In this document: positions 9,290 through 22,896 of the stretch, piece after piece
Position numbering within the stretch: position 1 is the first letter of the stretch
Layout: every line of letters begins with the position of its first letter
NCBI GenBank assembly: GCA_023249405.1
Contig: JAHFCR010000018.1
Span: 1 to 50,404, forward strand
Reading direction: 5' to 3'
From: Peptococcaceae bacterium
GTDB taxonomy: Bacteria > Bacillota > DSM-12270 > Thermacetogeniales > Thermacetogeniaceae
Length of the DNA: 50,404 bases
Translations under genes and position numbers: made by a program
Notes under the pieces: model-generated
What the model saw: only the letters and a program-made list of their open reading frames with translations
Told to the model about the DNA's origin: nothing
The model's database searches: none

Positions 9290-10390
9290 ATGAGTGTGAG
9301 AAAACCGATAAAAATACTTGTCTCCTATCTTTTGCCCGGAATGAAGCTTGCTCATCCGATTTACGATTTACACGGTGAATTTTTACTGAAGAAAGAAACT
9401 GTTATTACAGATAGGTACATTGCCTCCTTGCAGAAACGCCACATTCTGACTGTTTATATTGAGGGAGTTGCCATTCCCGAGTCTTTCATCCTCCATCAGC
9501 AGGAAATGATCGAGGAAACAATTCGCGCTAATGCCTTTGCTTCGATCCGGGGGCTGGCGGAAAAAGGTGATGCCCATGCCATCAAATCTATTACTCTCAG
9601 CGTTGAGAATATCATGGAGGAATTGATGTCAGGCAAAATGGCCGTAGGCGCCTTGACCGAAATATCATCTACTGACGCCTATACCTACGCGCATTCAGTT
9701 GATGTCTGCCTACTGGCTCTTCAGACGGGAATGCGTCTAAATTATGATAAACGCAAGCTACTAAAGCTGGGAATCGGCTGCATCCTGCATGACCTGGGGA
9801 AGGTGGAGACACCAATTGAGATCCTTAACAAGGCCGGAAAACTTACCGATCAGGAGTATGACATTATCAAGAGACACCCGCGCGACGGCTGTAACTTTGT
9901 TAAAAAGATCCAGAATGATATTGAAGACAGCACAACATCGATTATCCACAGACACCACGAAAGGCAGGACGGCAGAGGCTACCCTCAAGGGTTGACAGGT
10001 GATAGTATCGATGAGATGAGTTCGATCTGCGCCATTGCCGATGTCTACAACGCTATGACCACTGACCGGGTCTATCGCAAGGCTATCCCTAGCAATGAGG
10101 TCTATGAGTATCTAATGGCCGCGGGTAGTACCGTTACCGGACGAAAAGTACTGGATGCCTTTTTGCAGTGCGTGGTTCCCTTCCCTGTCGGATCCATGGT
10201 CCGACTCAGCACGGGAGAGGTAGGCGTGGTCACAGACACCGATCCCTATCTGCTGTTGCGGCCGCAGGTTTATGTGTCAGAAACAAACAGGGTCGCTAAT
10301 TTGAAAGATGAATTATCAACCACGATACTCAGAATATTGGATAGCGAGGAAACGCTGGAGTTCAATGCAAAATCTTTGATAACCATTTGA
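9290..10390 (+). CDS. HD-GYP domain protein, probable c-di-GMP phosphodiesterase
   Basis: A 366-residue cytoplasmic protein. The N-terminal ~120 residues open with an LLPGMKLAHPIYDLHGEFLL segment typical of proteins carrying a small module before HD-GYP. The HD-GYP domain spans about 125-285, with HSVDVCLLAL, HDLGK (near 166), IKRHPRDGCNFV, and HHERQDGRGYP (near 221). The HD metal ligands and the GYP motif are intact, predicting hydrolysis of c-di-GMP. A C-terminal extension (about 300-366) resembles the small barrel found in some HD-GYP proteins. Start ATG; a strong ribosome binding site is not evident. It is a monocistronic unit between two terminators. Confidence 0.88.
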   Translation: MSVRKPIKILVSYLLPGMKLAHPIYDLHGEFLLKKETVITDRYIASLQKRHILTVYIEGVAIPESFILHQQEMIEETIRANAFASIRGLAEKGDAHAIKSITLSVENIMEELMSGKMAVGALTEISSTDAYTYAHSVDVCLLALQTGMRLNYDKRKLLKLGIGCILHDLGKVETPIEILNKAGKLTDQEYDIIKRHPRDGCNFVKKIQNDIEDSTTSIIHRHHERQDGRGYPQGLTGDSIDEMSSICAIADVYNAMTTDRVYRKAIPSNEVYEYLMAAGSTVTGRKVLDAFLQCVVPFPVGSMVRLSTGEVGVVTDTDPYLLLRPQVYVSETNRVANLKDELSTTILRILDSEETLEFNAKSLITI

Positions 10391-14778: not shown

Positions 14779-15885
14779 TCAGCTTCTCTGGGGGGTTTCT
14801 TTTCTCCGGATAATGGCAATTAAAAGGATTAGAGCAGGAATAGCTAATTCAATGACAGTAAAATAGGTGGTCCACAACGGGCCATATATGAAACCAAGAA
14901 GGTTAAAGCCTGGTTCGTATATAATTTTTTTAAGGAGAAGGATAGCCATTGCAACGGGAATCAGCATGAGCCGGTAATTCTTCGTACCCAGGACGTTGGC
15001 GGCGGCAACGCTGGCGGAATGACAAAAAACCGCCAATTTTAAAATCACCCCGGATATCCAAGTGATTATAATCAATATTTCAAAGTTTTGTAAGAAATGA
15101 GCTACTGAGATGTAACGGGCCACTTCATAATCTGGGAATAATATGTGCGCTGCCACTAGATTGCCGAATGCTCCAAGAGTAATTGATTCGGCGGCTGCAG
15201 ATAAGATAGCGGCTCCCCCAAGATAAAGTAAGGTGATTTTAAAGGCTTCATGTTTCTGATTTAGGTAGGGGAAAAGCATGAGCAAGATGAAAAGCTCTCC
15301 TCGCAAGGGAGATTGAAGCAGGCTTCCTTTAATTACAGGCATAAAACCATTTTCTAAAAACGGTCTTAGATTATTGAAATTAAGATCTTTTAGTATCAAA
15401 AAAGATATCACCACAATTTGAAGTAAATACAACGAAAAGTAAAGCAGCATATTCTCCCGGGCGATGCACTCAATACCAAGATATGCTCCATATATAGCGG
15501 CTGTTATAAAGACGAGATCGATAACTAAGTTGGGGGTCAAAGGCATAAGGACAGTCTGAAAAAAGCTTGTTCCCTGGCTTGAAATCAATGAGGCAAGGTG
15601 GATAAACGCCAGCGTATAGACTATCGCCAGAAGTTTACCGGGAACCTTGCCAATAATATCGGGCAAATATTCGGTAAATGTCTGTAAAGGATATTTTTTT
15701 GCCAACGTAATGACCACCCCGGCTACCAGGAGACCGTAAAACGAAGCTAGGATATATGAAAGCCAAGCATCCGCACCACCTATTTCTGCAATCTTGGCTG
15801 GAATATAGAAAACAGAAGTGGCCACTTCTACTAAAAACAGCAGGAGAAGAAGCTGCACACTACTGATACGCCCATTTTCCAGCAT
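14779..15885 (-). CDS. GerAB-type spore germination permease (solo)
   Basis: A 368-residue protein with about ten membrane helices of the GerAB/APC superfamily; the start region ISSVQLLLLLFLVEVATSVF is typical of the family. In GerA-type germinant receptors this subunit binds the germinant (amino acid or nucleoside) in the spore inner membrane together with GerAA and GerAC subunits. Here neither partner gene is adjacent: the neighbours are a tRNA/small ORF and a decayed transposase. The gene stands alone, is AT-richer than the housekeeping block, and starts with ATG at 15885. Confidence 0.88.
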   Translation of the reverse strand: MLENGRISSVQLLLLLFLVEVATSVFYIPAKIAEIGGADAWLSYILASFYGLLVAGVVITLAKKYPLQTFTEYLPDIIGKVPGKLLAIVYTLAFIHLASLISSQGTSFFQTVLMPLTPNLVIDLVFITAAIYGAYLGIECIARENMLLYFSLYLLQIVVISFLILKDLNFNNLRPFLENGFMPVIKGSLLQSPLRGELFILLMLFPYLNQKHEAFKITLLYLGGAAILSAAAESITLGAFGNLVAAHILFPDYEVARYISVAHFLQNFEILIIITWISGVILKLAVFCHSASVAAANVLGTKNYRLMLIPVAMAILLLKKIIYEPGFNLLGFIYGPLWTTYFTVIELAIPALILLIAIIRRKETPQRS

Positions 15886-16080: not shown

Positions 16081-16102
16081 GATCGTAGGCTGGAATGTAT
16101 GG
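16081..16102 (+). repeat. 22-bp dispersed repeat, copy 1
   Basis: Shares the frame GATCGTAGGCTG-AATGT-TGG with 21661-21682, same strand, with only a few differences. It lies immediately before the transposase remnant, so it may be a trace of a mobile element end. Confidence 0.4.
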
Positions 16103-16965
16103 GCGGTAATGATTTTGAGAGGGTTTTAAAGATGCTGGTGACGCCGTTCCTGGCCGTAACCGGGAATACCACGACCACCAAGATAGAAGCTTACGAGAAG
16201 ACCAAACCGAAGAAGTACCTTTCCAATGACGGCCAGAGCGCTGACTGGGGAGTGAAGCAGAATACAGACGGCAACAAGATAGCCTGGTTCGGGTACAAGC
16301 AGCACACCGCCATTAACGCCAAGTCAGAGCTGCCCGTAGCCATAGAAGTAACGCCCGCCAGTGTGCACGACAGCACGGTGGCCATGAAACTGGTCAAGAA
16401 GGCGAGAGCTAATCTTGTCAAAGAACCGTCTTACTACCTGATGGATTCAGCTTACGACAGCGTCGATATCTACAAGGAGATCATGAACGACTACCATGGC
16501 AGGGCAATCATTCCCCTGAACTTAAGGGGAGCAAAGGAACCCAGGGAAGGCTTCGATTTTGACGGCACTCCCGTCTGCTCCGCCGGTTTTAGAATGATCT
16601 ACTGGGGATGCGACAACGGTTTCAACAAGTTCCGCTGCCCCCACGTCCTGGGTAAGGCCGACTGCCCTTTCGGCTCCAACTGGTGCTCCGATTCCAACTA
16701 CGGCCTGGTAGTCAAGACCAGCGTCAAGGATGATCCCCGCCTGTTCTGTAACCCCCACCGAGGCACGAAGAACTGGCAGAAGCTCTGCGATGACAGAACC
16801 GGCGCTGAACGATACTTCAGCCGGTCTAAAGAACACCTGGGTCTGGAAAGGCCCACCCTGAGAGGCATCAAGAAGATCGAGACCCATGCTTACCTGTGCG
16901 CCATCTCCCTGCTGGCCACGGTGCTGACGATGAATAGAGCCAAAACAGTTAAGAAAACAGCTTAA
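16099..16965 (+). pseudogene. Truncated IS4-type DDE transposase
   Basis: A 288-residue reading frame covering the catalytic core and C-terminus of a DDE transposase: KIEAYEKTKPKK, then WFGYKQHTAINAKSELPVAI, the second Asp in YLMDSAYDS (near 115) and the Glu in RTGAERYFSRSKEHLGLE (near 238). The N-terminal DNA-binding region is missing, and where the first catalytic Asp (usually a D-S/G-T motif before KIEAYE) should be the protein reads TGNTTTT. It has no ribosome binding site and I see no terminal inverted repeats. It is almost certainly inactive. Confidence 0.75.
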
Positions 16966-21784: not shown

Positions 21785-21812
21785 ACCCCTGAATAATGCA
21801 GCCCATATAATA
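21785..21812 (+). promoter_or_regulatory. Sigma-K-like promoter of the first Cys-tailed protein
   Basis: AC (21785-21786), a 17-bp spacer and CATATAATA (21804-21812) match the Bacillus sigma-K consensus (AC, 16-17 bp, CATAnnnTA). The same layout occurs before the paralogue at 22684. It predicts a transcript start near 21818-21820, which keeps the AAGGGGG ribosome binding site. Confidence 0.5.
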
Positions 21813-21844
21813 ATGAGGATGAATATGCCAAAAGGGGGTAAGAT

Positions 21845-22042
21845 ATGAAATCGCAACCTGTTGCTGTCAGCGTCTTATATGGTATACCTCCTGCTGTTGT
21901 TGAAAATTATAAGCGACGCGGAATGACTGAGAAAGAAATAAAGGCGTTATTTACATCCAAAACCGTTATTAATGCCCGTCCATTTTATGGTTTCAACCCG
22001 CCTTCCAAGCCGGGTGGTTGCGGATGCGAACGTAATGCCTAA
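21845..22042 (+). CDS. Small Cys-tailed protein, paralogue 1
   Basis: 65 residues, starting at the ATG seven bases after AAGGGGG. It has a short beta-like N-terminus (SQPVAVSVLYGIP), a charged helix with YKRRGMTEKEIKALFTSKT, then INARPFYG, NPPSKP and a GGCGCE tail. It is clearly homologous to the protein at 22684-22896. I do not recognise the family. The promoter suggests mother-cell expression late in sporulation, and the CxC tail would suit metal binding or disulfide crosslinking in a spore coat. Both points are inference. Confidence 0.65.
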   Translation: MKSQPVAVSVLYGIPPAVVENYKRRGMTEKEIKALFTSKTVINARPFYGFNPPSKPGGCGCERNA

Positions 22043-22047
22043 AGCCT

Positions 22048-22075
22048 GCCTCCGGGAGAACCGGAGGCTGTGTTT
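22048..22075 (+). terminator. Terminator of paralogue 1
   Basis: A perfect 8-bp stem (GCCTCCGG / CCGGAGGC) with a GAGAA loop, followed by TGTGTTT. Confidence 0.8.
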
Positions 22076-22346
22076 ATGATCTTCGTGACCGGGCCGGCAA
22101 GATGATGGTGACCCCGTTTCCGGTCAAAATGATGGTGTTGCCGACGAAGAAAAGTGTGATACAGCCGTTAATGCAACAAGAGGATAAAACAGGCTGCAAG
22201 AGGATAAAAACCCAGATAATGGCCCCGATGGTTGCTGCCGGGCCATTTTTTAATGCAATCTTAACTTTAATTTCAGATTCTTTTAAGAAAAAGGTGCTAC
22301 ACTTATGTAAATTACAAAAAATGATTTTAGGATGGTGACTCATTTA

Positions 22347-22430
22347 ATGGAAATGACCTCTTTTATTGCTGGCTTTCTGATCTGCCTGGCCTTTATCGGT
22401 TGGACGGCGTCGCAATCGCACCAATCATGA
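22347..22430 (+). CDS. Very small membrane peptide
   Basis: 27 residues, MEMTSFIAGFLICLAFIGWT and a short polar tail. A single hydrophobic helix; AGGATGG lies about 15 bases upstream, which is far. A terminator follows at 22474. Plausible as one of the tiny membrane peptides of spore formers, but weakly supported. Confidence 0.3.
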   Translation: MEMTSFIAGFLICLAFIGWTASQSHQS

Positions 22431-22473
22431 TGTAATTATGATCTTTCCCCTCATATACATCAATATCCTCTTC

Positions 22474-22499
22474 AAAACCCGGGCATGTGCCCGGGTTTT
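22474..22499 (+). terminator. Bidirectional-type intrinsic terminator
   Basis: A perfect 12-bp stem AAAACCCGGGCA / TGCCCGGGTTTT with a two-base spacer; A- and T-rich ends allow function on both strands. Confidence 0.8.
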
Positions 22500-22621
22500 A
22501 CTTCCTCTGCAAATATAGGACAGCAGCACGGGCAGCCGACCGGGCCCTTATATTTAACAACTGTTATAGCGCACTCCGGGCAGCAGTCGAAAATACAGCT
22601 CTGCCGTCTGCTATGGCTGTA

Positions 22622-22649
22622 ACACTTAAATAATAAAAATCATATAATG
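22622..22649 (+). promoter_or_regulatory. Sigma-K-like promoter of the second Cys-tailed protein
   Basis: AC (22622-22623), 17 bp, then CATATAATG (22641-22649; last base off consensus). The surrounding bases are similar to those before paralogue 1, including TAAC and AATAAT. Confidence 0.48.
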
Positions 22650-22683
22650 GAGGAATAATATGCCAATAAGGGGGATTGAGCGC

Positions 22684-22896
22684 ATGCAATCTCATTCTGT
22701 GACAGTTAACATCTTAGGATATGAGATGCCTCTCGATTTTTATGTCTATTACAAACGGCGTGGATTCAACGAGGAAAAAATAAAGGCGTTATTCATCTCC
22801 AAGACTACTATCGATGCCCGTGCATTTCATGGAAAAGCCAATCCACCCTCCAAGCCGGATTGTTACGGATGCGGATGCCAGCTTAAAGCCAGATAA
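22684..22896 (+). CDS. Small Cys-tailed protein, paralogue 2
   Basis: 70 residues from the ATG at 22684, nine bases after AAGGGGG. An in-frame ATG at 22660 with GGAGG upstream would add eight residues, but the equivalent upstream frame in paralogue 1 is closed, which favours 22684. It aligns with paralogue 1 over its whole length: YKRRGFNEEKIKALFISKTT, IDARAFHG, NPPSKP and a tail with CYGCGC. The middle helix and the proline/cysteine tail are the conserved parts. No known family is recognised. Confidence 0.65.
   Translation: MQSHSVTVNILGYEMPLDFYVYYKRRGFNEEKIKALFISKTTIDARAFHGKANPPSKPDCYGCGCQLKAR

Follow-up and report, generated by a model that had tools for sequence, protein, structure and literature searches.

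Two small Cys-tailed proteins of a Peptococcaceae bacterium as candidate spore-envelope proteins of an undescribed family with sigma-K-like promoters

A stretch of 50,404 nucleotides (nt) from a Peptococcaceae bacterium (assembly GCA_023249405.1, contig JAHFCR010000018.1), called the window here, contains two short genes, A and B, which lie on the forward strand with a gap of 642 bp between them and encode homologous proteins of 65 and 70 amino acids (aa). The comparison of these genes with their distant relatives suggests that both probably encode small proteins of the spore envelope, in the coat or the exosporium, which belong to an undescribed family and whose genes sigma-K polymerase would transcribe late in the mother cell. 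The features of the locus are as follows.

21785-21811, forward strand: sigma-K-like promoter of gene A, AC-N17-CATATAAT (extended GTAAC...CATATAATA), a pattern match whose consensus was compared with PMC3789822.
21845-22042, forward strand: gene A (ORF A, an open reading frame), 65 aa, with the IPPAVVENYKRRGMTEKEIKALF module, an NPPSKPGG linker and a GCGC tail.
22048-22068, forward strand: probable intrinsic terminator of gene A, with an 8-bp stem.
22622-22648, forward strand: sigma-K-like promoter of gene B, AC-N17-CATATAAT, a pattern match.
22660-22683, forward strand: possible N-terminal extension of gene B, 8 codons (MPIRGIER), read from the sequence.
22684-22896, forward strand: gene B (ORF B), 70 aa, with a diverged module (MPLDFYVYYKRRGFNEEKIKALF), NPPSKP and a CYGCGC tail.

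The two proteins share 54% identity (BLASTP, expectation value E = 8e-22), and the core YKRRG..IKALF.SKT.I.AR.F.G, the NPPSKP motif and the GCGC end were located in both, with three or fewer cysteines in each, all of them C-terminal. The differences between the genes are distributed as 16/12/27 over the three codon positions, with third positions the highest, and the synonymous divergence (dS 0.75) exceeds the nonsynonymous one (dN 0.26), a pattern like that of coding sequence. The motif AAGGGGG was found in front of both genes, as expected by an earlier sequence-only reading that took it for the ribosome binding site. Translation of gene B from the in-frame ATG at 22660, which is preceded by GGAGG, would give 78 aa, while the equivalent ATG of gene A is out of frame. 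Ahead of gene A, at 21819-21846, an out-of-frame mini-ORF (MPKGGKI*) was observed, whose TGA stop overlaps the start codon of gene A. The 8-bp hairpin terminator begins 6 nt past the end of gene A (z = -4.2), and this terminator-like structure directly after the gene is consistent with reading gene A as monocistronic; the 3' hairpin of gene B is weak (z = -1.2). The earlier description of two homologous genes of 65-70 aa about 0.6 kb apart, with a shared core, a CGC-type tail and an AC-17 bp promoter at the same distance, is correct in almost every detail, the corrections being the second possible start of gene B and a sigma-A-like match at that gene.

Exact AC-N17-CATATAAT sites were observed at both genes, with the -10 box starting 41 nt (A) and 43 nt (B) upstream of the start codons of the 65- and 70-aa proteins. 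Compared with a sigma-K pattern of AC at -35, a spacer of about 14-17 and CATANNNTA at -10, the site of gene A matches exactly and that of gene B ends in TG, not TA. The 3.57-Mb genome contains five exact matches to AC-N17-CATATAAT, against three for the reversed pattern, and two of the five are genes A and B. Common ancestry of the paralogues could by itself explain a shared promoter. However, the identity between A and B is 23/35 from -27 to +8 of the -10 box and 5/23, 18/50 and 32/100 in successive blocks farther upstream, suggesting selection on the promoter, since the -35/-10 block was kept while the upstream flanks diverged to background identity.

The same arrangement was found among the relatives described below. 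The pattern [AG]C-N14-18-CATANNNT[AG] is present in 12 of 16 upstream regions (those of A and B, of representative relatives and of a gene on contig 117 of the host genome; some of these loci are closely related and hence not fully independent), whereas 500 rounds of dinucleotide shuffling yielded 0.5 on average and never more than 3, and it lies ahead of 2 of the 34 other window ORFs. The four regions lacking the motif include that of G040, whose start had been set wrongly. The NNN of CATANNNTA differs among the homologues (TAA, TTA, CTC, CTA, CGC and GTA), which argues that the constraint lies on CATA...TA and not on TATAAT. This bears on the possibility that A and B are vegetative genes read by sigma-A through TATAAT: gene B does match GTAACA-18-TATAAT at 10 of 12 positions, but 3.5 such sites are expected in the window by chance, gene A has no matching -35, and the homologues retain CATANNNTA rather than TATAAT, so that we regard vegetative expression as very unlikely. 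Control by sigma-E, with A and B as early mother-cell genes whose proteins still reach the spore, is a more serious rival, since CATATAAT is one base off the sigma-E element CATACAAT; it is nevertheless improbable, because the sites carry AC or GC at -35 in place of an ATA element and the NNN varies. In Clostridioides difficile, the -10 elements of sigma-E and sigma-K are similar while the -35 differs (ATA vs AC), and the sigma-K-dependent P2 promoter of sigK reads AC/CATATAAT (PMC3789822). In Bacillus subtilis, the -35 element (5 nt) and the -10 element (10 nt) of sigma-K sites lie 14-16 nt apart (PMC517825). The variable NNN together with AC at -35 thus favours sigma-K over both sigma-A and sigma-E.

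Most of the GTARC-N16/17-CATANNNTA sites in the host genome lie 14-81 nt ahead of an ORF, including cotJA, the contig 117 gene, gene A, glycosyltransferase genes and genes for a beta-propeller protein and a Cys-rich protein. The host cotJA (PF11007, E 1.9e-16) is preceded by GTAGC-N17-CATACAATA; CotJA thus shares the promoter motif within the same genome, while its protein sequence is unrelated to A and B. A gene for a 173-aa Cys-rich protein of no known family (L116:932-1453, host contig 13) was also observed behind the same motif; it is transcribed away from a glycosyltransferase gene that likewise has a copy, and the two possibly belong to a spore-surface glycosylation cluster.

Profile searches of Pfam, NCBIfam, PHROGs and PDB with the A/B family gave no significant match and none over the cut-off, so that the family, which the sequence-only reading did not recognise, is undescribed in these four libraries. 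The genome contigs yielded no relatives to a profile of the two window proteins, and an alignment of the relatives detected two genomes only, both already found. A profile of A and B gave weak matches at the C-termini of 160-200-aa proteins from the same family of organisms; these C-termini carry IPPAVMEYYKQFGLDEETIKLIFQ, evidently the same segment as IPPAVVENYKRRGMTEKEIKALF of gene A. With iterated profiles, distant relatives were obtained from 18 genomes, the window genome included, in five families of the phylum, all sporulating lineages: members of the same family (G003, G005, G008, G010, G011, G013, G014 and G019) and of four others (G040, G083, G183, G192, G255, G263, G278, G301 and G337). 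Late E-values are low by construction for members already contained in the iterated profiles, while those new to the profile gave independent values of 6e-10 (G040), 1.6e-8 (G263), 7.4e-7 (G255) and 2e-6 (G192). Weak matches elsewhere in the phylum were rejected as chance or non-homologous, namely DnaD-like proteins (G042 and G323), an aldehyde oxidoreductase-like ORF (G148) and hits in G036 and G361.

The common module of the family is IPxxVxxYYxxFGLxExxIxxLF, which stands alone in small proteins (A, B and proteins of 54-60 aa in G083, G183, G255, G278, G301 and G040) and also forms the C-terminus of longer acidic proteins. AlphaFold2, run on a four-row alignment, placed two short helices at residues 16-24 and 29-36, giving a helix-turn-helix hairpin with a predicted local distance difference test (pLDDT) of about 91 at its middle, and a tail disordered from residue 49. 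A weak likeness to the DnaD N-terminal domain (PF21984) was observed in IPxxLLxxYxxLGLxExE (best E 0.12 in Pfam, and 0.56 for PDB 2v79), but the match is not significant and lacks the remainder of the winged helix, and homology is not claimed. Besides the window genome, two module copies lie close by or in the same genome in G255, G278 and G040, and on two contigs in G301. At L067:7851-8279 (reverse strand), with a 60-aa ORF about 2 kb off, and at L100/L106, two module genes likewise lie near each other, one with a tail ending in GG and the other with a tail ending in Cys. The tails are of two types: PPxKP..GG (CPPRKPRPGGG, PPSKEPPPSTPAPGG and NPPSKPGGCGC) and SFTPT followed by a C-terminal Cys (TTPPKNC, PVVVC and TVVTC), with GPCGCG in G337. 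Paralogous genes this small, in which the N-terminal part is conserved and the Cys/Gly/Pro-rich tail variable, also recall precursors of ribosomally synthesised and post-translationally modified peptides, in which the core would be a leader and the tail the modified product. This is scarcely credible here, as the module is C-terminal in the longer proteins, which is impossible for a leader, no NCBIfam precursor matched, and no maturase, peptidase or transporter adjoins A/B among the genes checked or occurs in the relatives' loci.

In most of the relatives' loci that were read, the neighbours of the module gene are a CAP protein and a recurrent protein with a PPxKP end; some loci add yabG-veg-sipL. 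The locus of G255 runs yabG (PF05582), veg (PF06257), SipL-LysM (PF12673 and PF01476), CAP (PF00188), a further protein and the module gene, the first four being confirmed by Pfam; G301 shows the same order by eye. In G005, yabG- and veg-like ORFs (by eye) are followed by a CAP gene (Pfam), then by the module gene and one for a 310-aa protein, while G011 and G192 have a CAP-like gene, the module and a 310-370-aa protein, and G019 and G008 the module gene or its end and then the 310-aa protein. CAP-like genes lie near the module gene in G083, G278 and G337, and no spore gene adjoins it in G263. The 310-aa protein (alignment A6) ends in IPSRPGL..TF...PPPKPPE.GG and belongs to no Pfam or NCBIfam family. 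The 310-370-aa proteins beside the module gene (L041:8148-9083, L040:6654-7586, L039:8115-9236 and L070:6230-7189) form a family of their own with a conserved IPSRPGL...PPPKPPE.GG tail. In the host genome, the syntenic locus on contig 117 (L083:8672-9199 and 9314-10354) encodes CAP (PF00188), a 175-aa Cys-rich protein ending in CNCRKCGR and a 346-aa protein ending in PSRSGL...NPPPKPPEFGG, with a GTAGC/GCATATACTA promoter. The 175-aa protein sits in the place of the module gene, yet it no longer scores with the module profile, and A and B may be what preserves the module in this genome, as stand-alone genes.

These neighbourhoods leave some room for a late but non-structural role, in which A and B would be mother-cell adaptors or chaperone-like factors, such as substrates or partners of the YabG protease, acting in assembly and not necessarily staying on the spore. 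C-terminal cysteines, as in A and B, are typical of cross-linked surface proteins and speak against such a role, which we consider unlikely. In its favour, some relatives lie near yabG, and PPSKP contains PxxP. The N-terminal SH3-like domain of YabG has been proposed to contact substrates, but its fold is like that of PetP and HspQ, and the same paper reports no PxxP binding for these two (PMC10681294).

The host genome has spoIVA and an intact sigK (TIGR02846, 346 bits against a curated cut-off of 298.65). Homologues common in non-sporulating bacteria were looked for within the phylum and not found: spoIVA is present in every family-bearing genome, which is weak evidence because it is also present in 336 of the 398 sampled genomes of the phylum (84%).

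Taken together, the promoters of the 12 upstream regions, the CAP, PPxKP and yabG-veg-sipL neighbours and the host sigK and spoIVA support late mother-cell spore-envelope proteins, and the earlier proposal of late mother-cell, perhaps coat, proteins is probably right. From these computed results we infer a structural role, in which the compact helical hairpin would dock the protein onto a spore-surface scaffold, the Pro-rich PPSKP linker would act as a flexible or protein-binding stretch, and the two to three C-terminal cysteines might form disulphide bonds, or else coordinate metal, after the protein has reached the spore, so that late cross-linking of the tail would help to lock the spore layer. 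Several observations weigh against this reading. In six relatives from the same taxonomic family no copy of the module was detected, which indicates that the protein is dispensable for sporulation. Cysteine positions are not conserved across the wider family, although a terminal Cys or a CGCG occurs in several of its members. The 12 GTARC sites of the host genome compare with 8 for the reversed control, a number that alone says little, and confidence in the AlphaFold2 model as a whole is low (mean pLDDT 64, predicted template-modelling score 0.37). Around A and B, the window contains a mixture of genes (polysaccharide deacetylase, helix-turn-helix regulator, trypsin-like protease and YtxC) and not a coat operon; genetic linkage to coat genes was found for the relatives and not for A and B themselves. 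A bolder and doubtful extension is a coat address system, with the module as a sorting or docking unit recruiting otherwise unrelated Cys- or Pro-tailed proteins of this phylum to a spore-surface scaffold and the PPxKP tails as a shared second signal; that this signal is read by the SH3-like domain of YabG is speculation. Elsewhere in the window, a spore germination permease (PF03845) lies at 14779-15885 on the reverse strand, with no obvious complete germination operon adjoining, and 16099-16965 on the forward strand looks by eye like a transposase fragment.

The spore-surface proteins of deep-branching anaerobic spore formers are largely uncharted, being unlike those of Bacillus or Clostridioides, and a new family that can be defined by its module, has a conserved promoter and is linked to an assembly locus shared with C. 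difficile allows coat and exosporium candidates to be listed and tested. The family is new to the libraries searched, but its kind, the late mother-cell spore-surface protein, is already known. Small sigma-K-dependent Cys-rich spore-surface proteins include CdeC/CdeM of C. difficile and CotY/CotZ of B. subtilis, with which A and B would functionally share late mother-cell expression and cysteine-rich ends; they differ in having no Pfam or NCBIfam match and three or fewer cysteines, all C-terminal. A comparable protein is not mentioned in the consulted text of the Moorella spore proteome report (PMC8745062). In C. difficile, the gene order is yabG-veg-sipL, and YabG and SipL are required for the coat and exosporium (PMC10681294). 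The module protein is not described at this locus in C. difficile or B. subtilis, and A and B lie apart from it as stand-alone single-module genes, whereas their relatives in several genomes occur in or beside the equivalent locus and carry sigma-K-type promoters.
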